This document shows positions 42,556-53,767 of a stretch of DNA of 64,000 nucleotides, in pieces. How positions within the stretch are numbered: position 1 is the stretch's first letter; each line of letters begins with the position of its first letter. The stretch covers positions 3,794,001 through 3,858,000 of the forward strand of contig NZ_JAVSJA010000001.1 of assembly GCF_032027425.1 (NCBI RefSeq), written 5' to 3'. Both the position numbers and the translations under genes were made by a program. The notes below the pieces were generated by a model. The model saw nothing but the letters and a program-made list of their open reading frames with translations, did no database searches and had not been told where the DNA came from. This DNA comes from Microcystis wesenbergii NRERC-220 (lineage in GTDB: Bacteria > Cyanobacteriota > Cyanobacteriia > Cyanobacteriales > Microcystaceae).

Positions 42556-42712
42556 ATGGGGTGTGGGGTGTGGGGTGTAGGGTGTAGGGTGTAGGGTGTG
42601 GGAAGAACAAATAAAAATAATCTCCTGTCTCCTGACTCCTGACTCCTGACTCCTGAATACTGACTCCTGAATACTGACTCCCGACTCCTGAATACTGACT
42701 CCTGACTTCTAA
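42556..42712. repeat. GTGTAGG and CTGACTC heptamer repeats
   Basis: GGGTGTA/GGGTGTG units at 42558-42602 and CTGACTC/CTGAATA units at 42620-42712, upstream of the fasciclin gene. Confidence 0.9.
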
Positions 42713-43219
42713 CCCCATGTTGGTCAAAGATAAGCAAAAATTATCTATTGACTCCAAAAACTTGAGAATATTTAAATTAACATTCCGCAATATTTACAAA
42801 TTCTTAAGAATTAATTGAGAAAGATTTTTATTTAACAACGATGTTACAATGGTTACAGCGATTTTACTGAATTTCATAATGGGTTATTCTGTGCTTTTTT
42901 GGGTAGCAATGGTTGAAACCCTTGCCACACCTACAGGGTGATCCTAATTAAGACGGGTAAATGAGTCAATTTCACCCACAACGATGATCTTTTTTTTGTG
43001 TAGTTTTATTGCAAAAAAAAAGTTTTTTTGACAAAAAGCAGAAAGTATGATATGAACGCTGGCGTATTTCTGGCTGCGAGTAATTATTGCAGAGTTAGGT
43101 CAAAATCAGGGGATTTCCTGTTTCCAAGTGATCAAATACAGAAAAGCAGCAATTCGATCAAGAAATCGATCAAAACAGCCTAGACTAGAAAAATAATCCT
43201 CTATCCCGACAGCTATCCT
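42713..43219. other. AT-rich intergenic region
   Basis: About 500 bases upstream of rnz. No gene seen. It contains a short dyad (AAACCCTTGCC...TACAGGGT) near 42917-42940 and a long A-tract with TTGACA at 43028 followed by TATGAT-like bases, but the spacing is too short for a convincing promoter. Confidence 0.4.
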
Positions 43220-44176
43220 GTGGAGATTACTTTTTTAGGAACCAGTTCCGGGGTTCCGACTCGTTCGCGTAATGTCTCTAGTATCGCCCTTCGGTTGCCG
43301 CAACGGGCGGAAATATGGCTGTTTGACTGTGGAGAAGGAACTCAACACCAGTTACTGCGTAGCGACCTAAAAAGTTCCCAAATCCGACGCATTTTTATCA
43401 CCCACATGCACGGCGATCATATCTTTGGTTTAATGGGATTGTTAGCCAGTATCGGATTAGCCGGTTCTGCTCAGGATATTGATATCTACGGACCCCCCGG
43501 ACTAGGGGACTATCTGCGTGCTTGTGCTAAGTATTCCTATACTAATTTCGCCAATCGGGTGCGAGTCCATGCCGTTTCCCCCGGCATACTCTACGAAGAT
43601 GAAGAATTTACCGTCTCCTGTCAGCTATTAAAACATCGTATTCCTGCCCACGGTTATCGCATCGCCGAAAAAGACCGTCCAGGACGTTTTGATGTGGAAA
43701 AAGCCAACGCTTTGGGTATTCCCCCCGGACCAATTTACGGCAAGCTGAAAAGAGGAGAAACTGTCACCCTCCCCGATGGCAGAAAAATTCGCGGTCAGTC
43801 CCTCTGCGGGGAAACGGAAATCGGCCGTAAAATTGCCTACTGTACCGATACTATTTTCTGTGAAGGTTCGATCGAATTGGCACAGAATGCAGATGTGCTA
43901 ATTCATGAGGCGACTTTTGCACACCAAGATGCTGGGTTAGCTTTTGAAAGTGTTCATTCCACTTCGACGATGGCAGCCCAGGTGGCCTTGGCAGCCCAGG
44001 TAAAATTGTTATTAATGACCCATTTTAGTCCCCGTTATCTACCGGGTAATTCTCTGGATATTTCCAATCTGTTAGAGGAAGCGCGGGCAATTTTTCCTAA
44101 CACTAAATTAGCCTACGATTTCCTCACCTACGAAGTCCCCCGCAACCGTCAAGAAATGGCTTTAGGAGTTAAGTAA
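43220..44176 (+). CDS. rnz: Ribonuclease Z
   Basis: A metallo-beta-lactamase-fold endonuclease that trims tRNA 3' ends. Zinc ligands: T-H-M-H-G-D-H-I-F-G, a central C-K...H-R-I-P-A-H-G-Y, A-Y-C-T-D-T, E-A-T-F and M-T-H-F-S-P-R-Y. The length of 318 and the G-T-S-S-G-V-P-T start fit. It starts with GTG at 43220. The next gene begins 2 bases after its stop, so the two form an operon. Confidence 0.93.
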   Translation: MEITFLGTSSGVPTRSRNVSSIALRLPQRAEIWLFDCGEGTQHQLLRSDLKSSQIRRIFITHMHGDHIFGLMGLLASIGLAGSAQDIDIYGPPGLGDYLRACAKYSYTNFANRVRVHAVSPGILYEDEEFTVSCQLLKHRIPAHGYRIAEKDRPGRFDVEKANALGIPPGPIYGKLKRGETVTLPDGRKIRGQSLCGETEIGRKIAYCTDTIFCEGSIELAQNADVLIHEATFAHQDAGLAFESVHSTSTMAAQVALAAQVKLLLMTHFSPRYLPGNSLDISNLLEEARAIFPNTKLAYDFLTYEVPRNRQEMALGVK

Positions 44177-44178
44177 TT

Positions 44179-47100
44179 ATGCCAGCAGCAGTGGAAGAAA
44201 AAAGCATGGTTCCCACGGTTTTAGTGGGTATTGGTGGCACGGGTAACGAAATTTTATCGCGATTGCGTCGTTTAATCGAGGAAAGTTATGGCAGTTTGAG
44301 CAATTTTCCGATTGTCAGTTTTTTGGTGGTTGACACGGATAAGGATTATAAAATCAGTAATCCTGAAGCTGCCGGCAGTGCTTTTAAAGATAACGAAAAA
44401 CACTGGGCCCGGGTGAGTGGAAAACAGGTACAGGAGATGGTATCTGACATGGATAGATATCCCTGGATTAATAGTTGGTTTCCCCCGGAATTAGAGAGAA
44501 ATATTACTTCCCTGGAAGCGGGGGCGGGACAAATTCGCGCCTGTGGACGTTTTGCTTTATTTTGTAATTATCATGAGATCCAAAGAAAATTTCTAGATGC
44601 GGTGAGACGGGTAAAGGGACAAGAAAACTTTATGCTCGATCGCTATGGAATTAAAGTTAATAATACTGCTATTAATGTCTTTACTACGGGGTCTTTAAAC
44701 GGTGGTACAGGTAGCGGAATGTTAATCGATCTAGGCTACTGTATTCGTAATTGGTTACGAGGGGAAAGTAGTCCTTTGAGTACGGCAATTGTTCCCACTC
44801 CTGAAGCATTTGCGGGGATTAGTGTCGGCGATCGAGTTTTGGCTAATGGTTACGCTGCCCTGATGGAATTAAATTACTTTTCCGACTACAGAACCGAATA
44901 TCATCAACAGTTTAGCAGCGGTTTAGTCGATGAAGTGGTTAGTAAATTACCCCCCTTTGATTTTACCTATTTAGTGGGGACAAAAAACGGCGAAGGTGAT
45001 TTTAAACTCGGTCAAATTCGGGAAATGATCGCCCAAAATATCTTCCTAGATATGACCTCTGATTTTGCCCCCCATAAGCGTTCTATTAGAGATAATATTA
45101 AGGGTTCTTGGGCGCAAGCTGACCCTGGGGGTCGCGGTTATCCTAAGCAATTTATGAGTTTTGGGCTATCAACTATTGAAATTCCTATTGCCCAAATTCG
45201 TGCCTCCTTATCGGAACGTTTAGCCAAAGATTTAATTAATTGGTGGCTGAATGATGCCGTGATTTTACCCGCTCAAATGTTGGACTTAGTAAGAGGTGAT
45301 ATCCTCAAAAGAATGCGCTTGAGCGAAGGAGAATTAATTATGGATTTATGTGCCGACAAGGATCGCTCTTTAATTGCCATAATCTCCCAATGGATTAACG
45401 AAACTCGTCAGGAAATCAATCAAGATAATTGGCTATCTTGTACCAAACAGGGTGTTAATATTTTAGGCAATGAACAGGGAAAAATTCTCCAATTTATCAA
45501 TGATTATTTAACGCCAAGAGTCGAGGAATTTAAACGCAATCATTTACTAGAATTGAGTCCCGATGAACGGCTGCACGGCGATTACCTGAAAAAGATTTAT
45601 AGTAATCGGGATGAAATTATTCAACGGGGTAAAAAGTCCCTGGAAATAGAGTTTTATAATATCCTTGAGGATCGGAACCGTGGGGTAAAATTTGCCGAGA
45701 GTTTTATTGTTTTAGTACGACAAATCTTCACCGACATAGCAGAAAAATTCCGTCGCGATCAAGAACAGGTTTGGAGTCAAAACGAAAGTAAACGTCAACG
45801 AGAATACGATACAGCTTTAGCGGAAATTAATGATCTGAAAGATAAACTTCATATCTCGAAAAAAGATAAGATGGAAGAATATTGTGAACAAGCTTTAACG
45901 GGATTGGAAGGCTATTTAATGGCCAATATTCAACGAAAAACCAGAGGTGCAGGAGTAGAGGTTATTAATCGTTTACTAGAACATCTTAATCAATTAGAAA
46001 GCCGTTTTAATCGCTTTCGTCAGAAATTAATTCAAAGTCGCGATCTATTTAATCTACAAGCTAACCAACAGATTGATAGTGCCGATGCTTTGTTAATTAA
46101 TGGGATTAAATTATTTGACAGACAAGAATTAAATGGTCTTTATCAAGACTTTGTCGAACAATTTGCCTCCGGGATTGCTGGTAACAAAAATGCCTACGAT
46201 ACAGGTATGGATAACCTTTGTTTACCCCTCTCAGAAGAGATTTTAAAGCAATCTAGCCCCCTCTGGAAAGAAACGCGCCGCTCCGACGAAAATATGCGTT
46301 TATTTGACATCACCGAGATTGCCGATATTCGTCAAAGAGATTTTCAACAAGTTGTCCTAAACCAAGCTAATAAATTACTACAAAATGCCCCCGCTAGTAG
46401 TCAAATTCAGCAGGAATTAGCCGCTTGTGATCGCTTGTTAAAAATTTATAACAACGATGCAGATATTATCAATAATCTTCGCATTGCCTACCAAAAATCG
46501 CGACCCCTAATTATGCTTAATCCTGCGGTTTTGCGGGGAAAAGATGCGGGTTTTACACCCCAATTAAATCAAAATGTTGCCCTGATTGGGGGAAGAAATA
46601 CCAATAACCCTGCAGCCCAAAAAATTATGCCGAAACTGCGGGAATTTATTCCCAACGAAGACGATATTAAACCCTTGGCAGAAGTGGAAAAACATCGTCT
46701 TGTCTTCGTGCAGGAAATTGGCGGGTTTTCCCTACGCTGTCTCGAGGGAATGCGAGAACTGCGGCAATCCTATCAGGACTGGAAAGGAGAATTTATTCTC
46801 GCTAAACGCGCCCAACAAATGGGCGAAAATCGTGATTTACCCATCCCCGTGCATATCCAAAAGGAACCGCCTTTCTGGGATGTTTTTCCCGAAGATCCGA
46901 GTATTTATCAATTGGTAGTAACAGCCCGGGCTTTAAAAGTGCTTTTTCCAGAAGTCAATCGAGTCACTAATGAGAAAACAATTCGCTATGAAATTAAAAC
47001 CGCAACGGGATTAAAAAAAGTCGATATCGCTACCAGTTGGGAAGATGCGGTACAGGTGTTAGAAGTAAAAGCTTGTCGCGAAGATAAGGAAAAAATTCAA

Positions 47101-47415
47101 ACTCAGGTGACAGCTAAGTTACAGGATTCGTCCACCCCCGAGAAAAAACAAGCTTTGTATCGGACTTTTATCCAATATTTACAACAACGTTCCGAGGAGT
47201 TGACAGGAGGAAAAGACAATACAGAATATAAACGGGAAGATGCAATTATTTTGCAGTTAATCCATAACTATAAGTTGGATAGCGGTGGAGAAATTCCTCT
47301 TTCTCCGGTGACGGAAGTGGCTAACCTAGCTTTAATTATCTGCGGTAATTGTGGACACAAAAACCCGCCCTCGTCTAATTTTTGTTCTAAGTGTGGGGCA
47401 AAATTAGTTAAGTAG
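44179..47415 (+). CDS. Tubulin-like GTPase-domain protein with C-terminal zinc ribbon
   Basis: A 1078-residue protein, 2 bases after rnz. The N-terminal ~400 residues look like the Tubulin_2 (tubulin-like) domain. V-G-I-G-G-T-G-N-E (residues 16-24) lies in the first nucleotide loop position, and L-N-G-G-T-G-S-G-M (173-181) matches the tubulin/FtsZ signature loop. A long helical, partly coiled region follows (about 420-750; R-R-D-Q-E-Q-V-W-S-Q-N-E-S-K-R). It ends with a rubredoxin-like ribbon (Cys 1055, 1058, 1069, 1072). Polymer formation, partner and role are unknown. It is much larger than FtsZ (about 400) and distinct from it. Confidence 0.8.
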   Translation: MPAAVEEKSMVPTVLVGIGGTGNEILSRLRRLIEESYGSLSNFPIVSFLVVDTDKDYKISNPEAAGSAFKDNEKHWARVSGKQVQEMVSDMDRYPWINSWFPPELERNITSLEAGAGQIRACGRFALFCNYHEIQRKFLDAVRRVKGQENFMLDRYGIKVNNTAINVFTTGSLNGGTGSGMLIDLGYCIRNWLRGESSPLSTAIVPTPEAFAGISVGDRVLANGYAALMELNYFSDYRTEYHQQFSSGLVDEVVSKLPPFDFTYLVGTKNGEGDFKLGQIREMIAQNIFLDMTSDFAPHKRSIRDNIKGSWAQADPGGRGYPKQFMSFGLSTIEIPIAQIRASLSERLAKDLINWWLNDAVILPAQMLDLVRGDILKRMRLSEGELIMDLCADKDRSLIAIISQWINETRQEINQDNWLSCTKQGVNILGNEQGKILQFINDYLTPRVEEFKRNHLLELSPDERLHGDYLKKIYSNRDEIIQRGKKSLEIEFYNILEDRNRGVKFAESFIVLVRQIFTDIAEKFRRDQEQVWSQNESKRQREYDTALAEINDLKDKLHISKKDKMEEYCEQALTGLEGYLMANIQRKTRGAGVEVINRLLEHLNQLESRFNRFRQKLIQSRDLFNLQANQQIDSADALLINGIKLFDRQELNGLYQDFVEQFASGIAGNKNAYDTGMDNLCLPLSEEILKQSSPLWKETRRSDENMRLFDITEIADIRQRDFQQVVLNQANKLLQNAPASSQIQQELAACDRLLKIYNNDADIINNLRIAYQKSRPLIMLNPAVLRGKDAGFTPQLNQNVALIGGRNTNNPAAQKIMPKLREFIPNEDDIKPLAEVEKHRLVFVQEIGGFSLRCLEGMRELRQSYQDWKGEFILAKRAQQMGENRDLPIPVHIQKEPPFWDVFPEDPSIYQLVVTARALKVLFPEVNRVTNEKTIRYEIKTATGLKKVDIATSWEDAVQVLEVKACREDKEKIQTQVTAKLQDSSTPEKKQALYRTFIQYLQQRSEELTGGKDNTEYKREDAIILQLIHNYKLDSGGEIPLSPVTEVANLALIICGNCGHKNPPSSNFCSKCGAKLVK

Positions 47416-47439
47416 AAATTAGGCAATTGCTTGTTTTTA

Positions 47440-47570
47440 TACCATTTTTCATAAGTAATGGCAGAGATGGTTAATCGCCCTCACCCCTAACCCCCCACCC
47501 CCCCTTGCCCCCCCGACGTCGGGGGGGCAAGGGGGGGTAAGATACCTGCCAAGAATAAAGAAAAATGGTA
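47440..47570. mobile_element. Small inverted-repeat element with long GC palindrome, family C
   Basis: Ends TACCATTTTTC and AAAAATGGTA, with the inverted repeat extending to TGGCAG on both sides. The element is bounded by TA. The centre holds a perfect 42-bp palindrome (47497-47538) of C7/G7 runs around GACGTC. No coding capacity. It lies in the 343-base gap before argF. Confidence 0.75.
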
Positions 47571-47758
47571 TTAGTCCTCGGATAACAGAAAAAGTGGGGG
47601 TGTTAGCTAGACCAACATCCCCCACAATGAAAATTTTCGGGAAAAATTGCCTAATAGGGAAAAAACTGGATTATAATAAGGTCTTTACTCAAGATTTTTG
47701 CTAATCGCTAACTGCCATAAAACCCAATCAAGACCCCTGTTTATCGAGAGAAAAACCC

Positions 47759-48685
47759 ATGGTAGCCACTTTAAAAGGACGAGATGTTTTAAGAATAACC
47801 GACATGAGTAGCGAAGAAATCAGCGCCCTACTCAATCTATCGGCACAGCTTAAAGCTGGCACTCTTAACCCTAGCTGCAAAAAAGTCTTGGGATTGCTAT
47901 TTTATAAAGCTTCCACCCGGACCCGGGTTTCCTTTACCGTCGCCATGTACCAGTTAGGGGGACAGGTGATCGATCTCAATCCCAGTGTAACCCAAGTGGG
48001 GCGCGGGGAACCCTTAGCCGATACGGCCCGGGTACTCGATCGCTATCTCGATATTCTCGCAGTTCGCACCTTTAAACAAGAGGATTTAGAAGCTTTTGCC
48101 AATTACTCGCGCATTCCGATTATCAACGCTTTAACGGATTTAGAACATCCCTGTCAGATATTAGCCGATTTACAGACTATCCAAGAGACTTTTCAGACTT
48201 TACGGGGAATTAACCTCACCTATGTGGGGGATGGTAATAATGTCGCTAATTCTCTCCTCTTGGGTGGTGCTTTGATGGGGTTAAATGTGCGGGTTGCCTC
48301 CCCCGCAAACTATCAACCGGATGGGGAAATTGTCGCCAGCGCCCAGGCTATTGGCGAGAAAACCGGTAGTAAAATCTTAATTACCGACGATCCCGTTACG
48401 GCCGTAAAAGACTCTCAGGTGGTCTATACTGATGTCTGGGCAAGTATGGGACAGGAAAGCCTCGCTGATGCCCGAATTCCCGTTTTTCAGCCCTACCAAG
48501 TCAATGAACAGCTAATGAGTCACGCTGACAAAGACGCGATTATTCTCCATTGTTTACCTGCTCACCGGGGCGAAGAAATTACCGACGGGGCGATCGAGGG
48601 TGTACAATCAAAAGTCTGGGAGCAAGCGGAAAATCGGATGCACGCCCAAAAAGCTTTAATGGTGAGTTTATTGGGATTAATCTAG
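47759..48685 (+). CDS. argF: Ornithine carbamoyltransferase
   Basis: Makes citrulline from ornithine and carbamoyl phosphate. The carbamoyl-phosphate site S-T-R-T-R-V-S-F and H-P-C-Q, and the ornithine site H-C-L-P-A-H-R-G, are all present. Length 308. A strong hairpin (GTGGGGGTGTT / AACATCCCCCAC, about 47594-47625) lies in the upstream region, possibly in its leader. Confidence 0.95.
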   Translation: MVATLKGRDVLRITDMSSEEISALLNLSAQLKAGTLNPSCKKVLGLLFYKASTRTRVSFTVAMYQLGGQVIDLNPSVTQVGRGEPLADTARVLDRYLDILAVRTFKQEDLEAFANYSRIPIINALTDLEHPCQILADLQTIQETFQTLRGINLTYVGDGNNVANSLLLGGALMGLNVRVASPANYQPDGEIVASAQAIGEKTGSKILITDDPVTAVKDSQVVYTDVWASMGQESLADARIPVFQPYQVNEQLMSHADKDAIILHCLPAHRGEEITDGAIEGVQSKVWEQAENRMHAQKALMVSLLGLI

Positions 48686-52312: not shown

Positions 52313-53767
52313 TTACAAGCTAGAAGAACAGCAAGTTTTCCATTTTTGGGCGATAGAAAGGATTAATGCTTTTTCTGCTTGGGGTAAATTGGCAGCCTGT
52401 CGGTCGGTTATATCCCTTAATTCCCTGATAATCCGATTAAGAGCGAGTTTTCTAGTCTTTCGGGAGTCACTTCTCTGGACTAAAGCTATTTCTGCGATAA
52501 CTCGATTTAAACTGCTGATAGCTTGCCAAGTTTGCGGACGTAATGACGGTTCTGCGGCAATGGGGGCAACCTCCAGGGAAGCGATACTATCGAAAGTTGC
52601 TGCCTGACTAAATCGGTGTAAAGTCTGGGCGAGGCTATACATTTCTTCCCCGTAGGCGAGGGAACGTACCACAGCAAAGGCTTTTTCGGCTTTTTCGGTG
52701 TCCAGTTGGCAAAGATACCAAAAACCGGCGGCGGCGGCACGAGCAGGGGTATCGAGACGGATTTTGCTGGGAGGAAAAGAAAACAGTTTCGCCGACGCAT
52801 ATTTTAACAATTGCCAATCGGAGGGATTTTCTGCCAGACGGGAGACGCGATAGATAATTTCTGCCTCTGGGAATTGCGATAAAACGCGGTTAACGGCGAC
52901 AAGGACAGGAATAAACTGGCGGCTGTACTGAAGGTATTGATTGAGGTTATTAATAGCCGTTTCCCAGTCTTGCTGTAACCATTGTTGTAGAGTCGAGGTT
53001 AACCCCGGCAGCGGTAGAAGGGTAATACGGGGAAAAAGTCGCCCTTGGGGACTAGCCAAAAGCCCGATTAGCCAATTATCAAGACGGAAAAAGGCGAATA
53101 TAAACCCCACGCCGGACACCACGCTGAACACCACGCCGAACACCACGCCGAACACCACGCCGGACACCACGCCGAACACCACGCCGGACACCACGCCAGA
53201 CACCACGCCGTACACCACGCCGGACACCACGCCGGACACCACGCCGGACACCACGCCCAACACCACGCCCAACCCCACGCCGTACACCACGCCGTACACC
53301 ACGCCGGACACCACGCCGTACACCACGCCCAACGCCACGCCCAACACCACGCCGGACACCACGCTGAACACCACGCCGTACACCACGCTCAACACCACGC
53401 CGGACACCACGCCGTACACCACGCCCGACACCACGCCCAACACCACGCCCACCCAATCAACAGAAAGTCCTAAATTTGCTGCTATTATGCTACAGATAAT
53501 CAGAGGGGTAATTACAGTTAAGAGAAGACCCTGAATCCCTAGACGCAATTGTACGGGATGGTCGCGGAGAAATTGCATTCTATCGCGCCATGTTTTCTGT
53601 TCTTTTAATTTATCGCCGCCGCCTCTCGTTTCCACATACCAGCGCACTGCTTGGGGAAAATAAAACACCCAGTACAACAGCAAAAGATAATCAAAGGGAT
53701 TCCGTAAAGATAAATCGCGTCTGAGTTTAGGGGCGAGATTAATGGTGGGGACGGTGCTTTCCTTCAT
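52313..53767 (-). CDS. Membrane protein with 29 tandem GVVx tetrapeptide repeats
   Basis: Residues 1-75 are soluble with a hydrophobic stretch (Y-L-L-L-L-Y-W-V-F-Y-F). Residues 80-105 form a membrane helix (L-L-L-T-V-I-T-P-L-I-I-C-S-I-I). Residues 107-222 are 29 perfect-length tetrads of G-V-V-x, where x is mostly S, Y, L or F. The C-terminal 250 residues are soluble, helical and TPR-like (S-R-L-A-E-N-P-S-D-W-Q-L-L; A-Y-G-E-E-M-Y-S-L-A-Q). The repeat section is hydrophobic enough to span the membrane several times with tight Gly packing. Function unknown. Confidence 0.78.
   Translation of the reverse strand: MKESTVPTINLAPKLRRDLSLRNPFDYLLLLYWVFYFPQAVRWYVETRGGGDKLKEQKTWRDRMQFLRDHPVQLRLGIQGLLLTVITPLIICSIIAANLGLSVDWVGVVLGVVSGVVYGVVSGVVLSVVYGVVFSVVSGVVLGVALGVVYGVVSGVVYGVVYGVGLGVVLGVVSGVVSGVVSGVVYGVVSGVVSGVVFGVVSGVVFGVVFGVVFSVVSGVGFIFAFFRLDNWLIGLLASPQGRLFPRITLLPLPGLTSTLQQWLQQDWETAINNLNQYLQYSRQFIPVLVAVNRVLSQFPEAEIIYRVSRLAENPSDWQLLKYASAKLFSFPPSKIRLDTPARAAAAGFWYLCQLDTEKAEKAFAVVRSLAYGEEMYSLAQTLHRFSQAATFDSIASLEVAPIAAEPSLRPQTWQAISSLNRVIAEIALVQRSDSRKTRKLALNRIIRELRDITDRQAANLPQAEKALILSIAQKWKTCCSSSL
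53102..53449. repeat. 12-bp minisatellite, 29 units, in coding sequence
   Basis: 348 bp = 29 x 12. On the plus strand the unit is CACCACGCCGGA with variants. Each unit encodes one G-V-V-x tetrad on the minus strand. The 12-bp length keeps all frames open, which creates artificial ORFs in other frames. Confidence 0.95.

Follow-up and report, generated by a model that had tools for sequence, protein, structure and literature searches.

A giant tubulin-type protein of Microcystis wesenbergii belongs to the FtsZl1 family, one type of which is usually accompanied by a zinc-module receptor

A 64,000-nucleotide stretch of the genome of Microcystis wesenbergii NRERC-220 (contig NZ_JAVSJA010000001.1, positions 3,794,001 to 3,858,000), referred to here as the window, encodes a giant protein of 1078 residues directly behind rnz, the gene for ribonuclease Z. 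The protein is a Microcystis member of FtsZl1, a Tubulin_2 family described in 2010. We examined its fold, its relatives and the genes that accompany them in cyanobacteria. The following features were recognized at the locus.

44179..47415, + strand: FtsZl1 (Tubulin_2) gene, 1078 amino acids (open reading frame and translation; PF13809, E 4.2e-111)
44218..45237, + strand: Tubulin_2 GTPase domain, residues 14-353
44227..44244, + strand: T1-type loop GIGGTG, residues 17-22 (G17, G19, G20, T21 and G22 invariant in 36 rows)
44701..44718, + strand: T4-type loop GGTGSG, residues 175-180 (invariant in 36 rows; also in 28 rows that include two paralogues)
45241..47283, + strand: helical middle and C-terminal region, residues about 355-1035 (AlphaFold2 secondary structure)
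47284..47340, + strand: flexible linker, residues about 1036-1054 (low predicted local distance difference test score, pLDDT, at 1037-1057; length and sequence variable among relatives)
47341..47406, + strand: C-terminal zinc ribbon, residues 1055-1076 (Zn_Ribbon_1, E 1.3e-7)
44164..44168, + strand: AGGAG, possible ribosome-binding site within the end of rnz (read from the junction sequence)
43220..44176, + strand: rnz (ribonuclease Z), a positional neighbour outside the conserved system (TIGR02651, E 3.7e-112)

The FtsZl1 reading frame is intact. Its ATG at 44179 follows the stop codon of rnz (44174-44176) after a gap of two bases, and AGGAG stands ten bases 5' of the start codon. The Tubulin_2 profile PF13809 of Pfam matched residues 14-353 with 372 bits, against a cut-off of 27. 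When the protein was aligned with 35 relatives (alignment A4, 36 rows, five of them from Microcystis with the window included), the glycines and threonines of both loops were invariant. The zinc ribbon carries its cysteines at 1055, 1058, 1069 and 1072. An earlier note, made from the letters of this DNA alone, had described a 1078-residue protein with G-G-T-G loops in tubulin/FtsZ order, a long helical middle, a zinc ribbon at Cys 1055-1072 and a start two bases after rnz, and these features were confirmed. The same 1078-residue frame was open in eight other Microcystis loci, and the closest copies in named records were eight Microcystis contigs with 96-98% identity. The median ratio of nonsynonymous to synonymous substitution rates (dN/dS) was 0.091 for FtsZl1 (36 pairs, nine Microcystis copies) and 0.099 for rnz in the same nine. 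The Microcystis FtsZl1 gene is under purifying selection.

The AlphaFold2 models showed a tubulin core followed by a long helical middle, with helices at 468-497, 502-554, 561-637 and more. The model of the N-domain gave firm Foldseek matches to tubulin, CetZ and FtsZ, which bore out the tubulin-type fold proposed in the earlier note. Unlike these proteins, the window protein had no detected FtsZ_C or Tubulin_C domain (no Pfam match up to E 1), and its T7 catalytic residues could not be assigned. A profile of the 36 rows retrieved nothing up to E 10 from the sequences of solved structures, and with the window protein as single query the five matches had E values between 0.22 and 1.5.

FtsZl1 has been a puzzle since 2010, as a deep branch of the tubulin superfamily with scattered membrane-protein neighbours. 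Makarova and Koonin (2010; PMC2875224) named it, described a coiled-coil middle and a helical end, and listed cyanobacterial members. The window protein agrees with their account in its N-terminal tubulin-type domain, long helical middle, helical C-terminal part and length (about 1050 residues in the family), and in the VWA neighbour of many relatives. According to the sections consulted, a VWA gene lies in the same operon in most, not all, members and is not a strict criterion of the family. The authors proposed membrane remodelling together with VWA, GTPase and OmpA-type proteins. A reviewer, Jekely, pointed to a periplasmic-binding neighbour in Arthrospira, which the authors answered was confined to one or a few related organisms. 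A 2023 study of FtsZ and tubulin evolution placed Tubulin_2 proteins as a divergent outgroup (PMC9871819, in the parts consulted). Among the matches listed in the open literature, with preprints and most subscription papers outside the search, we found no tested function of FtsZl1, no function of a cyanobacterial member and no link to a receptor. The earlier note regarded the gene as its best candidate for an undescribed system. The family itself is not new; a changeable tail and a zinc-module receptor as near-constant partner, both set out below, were not found in the consulted sections of the 2010 paper or by term search of its main text.

Gene neighbourhoods were compared in 45 FtsZl1 loci, eight from Microcystis and 37 from elsewhere, whose open reading frames were clustered by BLAST and then mapped. 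A receptor with a small zinc module was encoded near FtsZl1 in 27 of the 37 loci outside Microcystis. A protein of about 300 residues, with a VWA domain between two transmembrane segments, was present in 22; the VWA domain of the copy at locus L040 matched with E 3.5e-5. Three loci contained a scaffold which, by reading of the sequences, resembles this protein minus its VWA domain. At least one of the three partners stood near FtsZl1 in 31 of the 37 loci. Genes of a Ser/Thr-kinase cluster were nearby in 12 of the 37; like COP23 proteins and trypsin-like proteases, they were confined to some lineages. The Pfam names of these three clusters come from L040 and L058. The earlier note had asked whether rnz, VWA or kinase genes recur beside homologues: outside Microcystis, VWA genes did so in many loci, kinase-cluster genes in some lineages and rnz in none.

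Seven loci of Microcoleus/Tychonema type (L055, L056, L057, L058, L059, L061 and L072) had kinase-, COP23- and trypsin-cluster genes downstream of FtsZl1. At L067, from Crocosphaera watsonii WH 8501, FtsZl1 was in pieces (frames of 98 and 842 residues), with receptor and VWA genes near. Genome G387 contained two tandem FtsZl1 genes (L101:5615-12537) with a VWA gene upstream; two zinc-module proteins, neither of which had a significant match in its outer domain, were encoded about 5-7 kb downstream. A search of viral contigs for FtsZl1 relatives gave 40 stretches that fitted the peptide pattern, none of which was confirmed.

The receptor has a recurrent order of parts: the zinc module at the N-terminus, one hydrophobic helix, often a TPR, and then usually a Peripla_BP_6 domain. 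In 21 aligned rows, the module consisted of W-x-C-x-G, then a loop in which an H is invariant, an equally invariant N and, in most copies, C-x2-C-G. The W, C, G, H and N were the same in all rows, and the last two cysteines were present in at least 90%. The outer part was exchanged among copies. It was PBP_like_2 in L050 and L071, with L054, L068 and a fragment in L074 falling in the same cluster, and Phosphonate-bd in L069 (E 4e-23); the two G387 copies had no significant match in this part. Run against 871 clustered open reading frames, the module pattern gave 25 matches, all of receptor type, with 23 in two receptor clusters plus L065 and L069. The module had no significant Pfam match; the best, to Vps36-NZF-N at E 0.16 in two of the 21 rows, is a hint only. 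At L065:3427-4815, the outer part of the zinc-module membrane protein resembled Ppx/GppA phosphatases (Ppx-GppA, E 1e-10), an odd choice of sensor.

Two further proteins of the window genome have related architectures. One (L099:945-3701) combines a caspase head, a transmembrane segment and a Peripla_BP_6 domain; the other (L097:1185-3794) has a CHAT head, a transmembrane segment, a TPR and a Peripla_BP_6 domain. In both, the outer part resembles that of the receptor linked to FtsZl1, and receptors with protease heads may form a family of their own. By analogy with the position of these heads, the zinc module of the receptor would be placed in the cytosol. Lys and Arg were commoner in the 15 residues before the hydrophobic helix than after it in 17 of 24 receptor copies, and fewer or equal in seven.

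The association was then followed across one draw of 388 genomes from the cyanobacterial class to which the window belongs; 113 of them contained a Tubulin_2 protein at E <= 0.001. A gap in the scores set apart 30 genomes, which represent 16 genera and whose FtsZl1 we call type A. The VWA partner (E <= 1e-20) was found in 26 genomes, 25 of them type A, and the full-length receptor (E <= 1e-140) in 27, of which 26 were type A. One or the other occurred in all 30 type-A genomes versus one of the 358 others (Fisher p 6e-44), and by genus in 16 of 16 versus 0 of 143 (p 3e-22). The exceptional genome with a partner and no type A, G175, is 90% complete and may lack the contig with FtsZl1. The zinc module alone (E <= 1e-5) was found in 32 genomes, 28 of the 30 with type A versus four of the 358 others (p 4e-36), and included four type-A genomes missed by the full-length receptor search (G247, G297, G387 and G017). 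Outside type A it occurred in G175, G157, G057 (weak, 6.5e-7) and G214, where it precedes a more divergent FtsZl1 by 204 bases. A further 59 genomes match A4 (E <= 1e-50) without being type A, and just two of them (G157 and G214) hold the module, so the module follows type A. The number of candidates scored per genome was capped at 6, 3 and 18 in the three partner searches, the last figure applying to the zinc module.

Genus g64, with eight genomes, has kept all of these genes although VWA and receptor are separated from FtsZl1 by 156-1931 kb of contig sequence (by less if the contig is circular). The genus is apparently Thermosynechococcus, judging from the nearly identical FtsZl1 N-termini of L062 and L103 (G030). 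Retention without linkage is stronger evidence than the p-values of co-occurrence. With a partner that persists in the absence of linkage, what was guesswork about FtsZl1 becomes a question about two genes: whether the receptor binds, positions or switches the GTPase.

The C-terminal tail of FtsZl1 was changeable. At E <= 0.01, 23 of the 36 A4 rows ended in a zinc ribbon, five in GYF_2 and three in SHOCT; of the remaining five, four had other tails and one (L041) is a frame truncated by the end of its contig. A variable linker precedes the tail in the relatives. The tail may serve as an exchangeable adaptor.

Microcystis retains part of this set. Type-A FtsZl1 and the zinc-module receptor were each found in 12 of 12 Microcystis genomes. 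The VWA protein was found in none of the 12; the same-family positive controls G295 and G348 matched in the search of three genomes, and the other nine were searched in a run without its own positive control. The VWA-less scaffold was not found either, the best E being 0.77 in the window genome and 0.27 in G271, with no match in G266. In the window genome, the receptor gene (G000:C1:1040409-1042019) follows genes for a ferritin-like protein and the iron permease FTR1, at a distance of 2.8 Mb from FtsZl1 along the contig that they share. Genome G295 has genes of the same clusters in a single run: ferritin-like, FTR1, receptor, VWA and FtsZl1. This gene order makes it likely that an ancestral run was broken in Microcystis, leaving VWA absent and FtsZl1 behind rnz, apart from the usual neighbours of the family. 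The VWA gene was probably lost. A 197-residue frame behind the receptor (L089:9980-10573) was considered as a stand-in for the VWA protein and rejected: apart from a single hydrophobic stretch it is rich in Pro and Thr, and no likeness was visible by eye.

A quick tree grouped Microcystis FtsZl1 with Spirulina, strain S06 and Gloeocapsa (Shimodaira-Hasegawa-like approximate likelihood ratio support 96). One clade of Microcystis and Crocosphaera-type copies was barely rejected (approximately unbiased test, p 0.042, for a group named post hoc). The receptor tree left the Microcystis receptor unplaced. The FtsZl1 gene behind rnz is presumably either the original copy, relocated, or a foreign one that replaced it.

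A second, different FtsZl1 is encoded in the window genome (L077:9465-17844), and such a copy was present in eight of the 12 Microcystis genomes. Its neighbours are a 374-residue protein without a Pfam match at E 0.001 and an 1108-residue coiled-coil protein with internal repeats; a protein of the locus also matches OmpA below threshold (23.1 bits, Pfam cut-off 27.2). In G266 (L078), the long gene of this second locus is split around an open reading frame of another cluster.

We favour the reading in which a transmembrane sensing complex has FtsZl1 as its cytosolic GTPase of tubulin type, and judging from sequence comparison we give it a probability of about 0.6. In such a complex, a ligand would bind the outer domain of the receptor. 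The zinc module, directly or through the FtsZl1 tail (zinc ribbon, GYF_2 or SHOCT), might then recruit the GTPase to the inner membrane or release it. By means of its tubulin-type core and helical middle, the protein could self-assemble in a GTP-dependent manner and in this way pass on the signal or organise the membrane. We regard as tentative, at somewhat less than even odds, the more specific proposal that receptors with a constant cytosolic zinc module and swappable sensors directly govern how a giant GTPase of tubulin type, itself with a swappable tail, assembles or is recruited to the membrane. Microcystis would represent the minimal, two-gene form of such a pathway from receptor to tubulin. 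If the receptor does bind, position or switch the GTPase, bacteria wire extracellular sensing to a tubulin-type protein.

Several points weigh against this reading. Cytosolic contact between FtsZl1 and the zinc module, control by a ligand, GTP hydrolysis and GTP-dependent assembly at the membrane are steps that we infer. The tail of FtsZl1 varies while the zinc module stays the same, and binding of tail to module is therefore a guess. Residues 295-343, the expected T7 region, were modelled with pLDDT below 50 in the N-domain, so GTP hydrolysis is not assured. In the Foldseek search with the full-length model, tubulins ranked first; 314 matches had E <= 10 and none had E <= 0.001. Six of the 37 loci outside Microcystis had no nearby partner (L052, L056, L062, L070, L072 and L076). 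At L056, L070 and L072 the contig starts in or just before FtsZl1, and L052 is a 7.3-kb contig; L062 is from Thermosynechococcus, where the genes are unlinked in related surveyed genomes, and at L076 the script found no core reading frame. G157 and G057 carry the zinc module without type A. Conversely, two of the 30 type-A genomes had no zinc-module match, namely G075, where a longer profile found the receptor, and G285, a 72% complete draft. G017 matched only weakly (4.9e-6), and the frame concerned has 50 residues and lies where its contig ends. Moreover, related genomes are not independent and the p-values ignore shared ancestry, and since the partner profiles were built from FtsZl1-linked loci, distant partners elsewhere are under-detected.

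The membrane remodelling already published for the family (PMC2875224, in the sections consulted) offers another account, in which FtsZl1, the VWA protein and other membrane proteins shape the inner membrane or make vesicles. The VWA partner near FtsZl1 in 22 of the 37 loci argues for it, as do the OmpA-like protein and the long coiled-coil protein beside the second FtsZl1 of the window genome. In Microcystis, however, FtsZl1 is kept where the VWA protein is absent and the receptor is always present, and the exchangeable ligand-binding domains of the receptor point to sensing. We consider remodelling unlikely as the explanation, although the two accounts are compatible with each other.

A role in nutrient uptake, with the receptor delivering or gating a substrate and FtsZl1 clustering transporters, seems improbable. 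The outer domains are mostly of solute-binding type, and Jekely proposed transport or signalling in 2010 (PMC2875224, in the reviewer's comments consulted). A ferritin-like gene and FTR1 precede the receptor in the window genome, and genes of the same two clusters precede it in G295, L044, L046, L048 and L049. These clusters were not found beside the receptor in G348 or in the remaining mapped loci, and because the outer domains change, no single substrate fits.

Still less probable is a role in biological conflict or phage defence, on the lines of the GTPase- and tubulin-based systems that Kaur et al. (2020; PMC7159879, in the sections consulted) predicted in firmicutes and actinobacteria. 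Their GAP1-N2 systems include proteins in which a tubulin domain is joined to a helical or coiled-coil region, and extracellular VWA proteins with transmembrane helices, as here. They differ in having DO-GTPase, GAP1 and FNIII proteins where the loci described here have the zinc-module receptor; the partner genes that we scanned belonged to other families or had no match, and DO-GTPase and GAP1 were not searched for. In the window genome, caspase and CHAT heads carry an outer part of the receptor's type, and a PADLOC caspase model matches the caspase-head protein (E 3.7e-17). In PADLOC-DB 2.0.0, however, the Microcystis receptor, the VWA protein and FtsZl1 of L040 and the L077 paralogue had no match at E <= 0.01, and the best match of the window protein was a CARF/HEPN model (E 0.0033) over the helical middle. 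Its presence beside the same gene in all 12 Microcystis genomes, together with the purifying selection, makes FtsZl1 unlike a patchy defence gene.

The earlier note had coupled the gene to RNase Z. The two-base spacing between rnz and FtsZl1 was found in 12 of 12 Microcystis genomes (the window, G266 and ten others), and the two genes adjoin in the eight Microcystis loci of the 45 collected, which stem from assemblies within the 12 genomes and are not an independent count. In the 37 other loci, with flanks of up to 10 kb and some much shorter, rnz was never near FtsZl1. Since the adjacency is confined to Microcystis, the coupling was rejected: the link appears to be positional, and rnz as a lead is most likely false. 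Overall, the interpretation given in the earlier note was partly supported. A scan of 42700-47900 for promoters and terminators gave sites no more numerous than in shuffles and is therefore uninformative on co-transcription. Functional coupling of FtsZl1 to rnz or tRNA processing, for which the constant spacing in Microcystis speaks, is hardly credible given that rnz is a general tRNA-processing enzyme, that only 113 of the 388 genomes have a Tubulin_2 protein and that the other loci lack the pairing. Nothing found in the analysis supports a role in either tRNA processing or phage defence.

Elsewhere in the window, on the reverse strand (52313-53767, -), a 484-residue open reading frame contains hydrophobic GVVxGVVx repeats, encoded by an array at 53103-53449 of about 29 copies of a 12-base unit.

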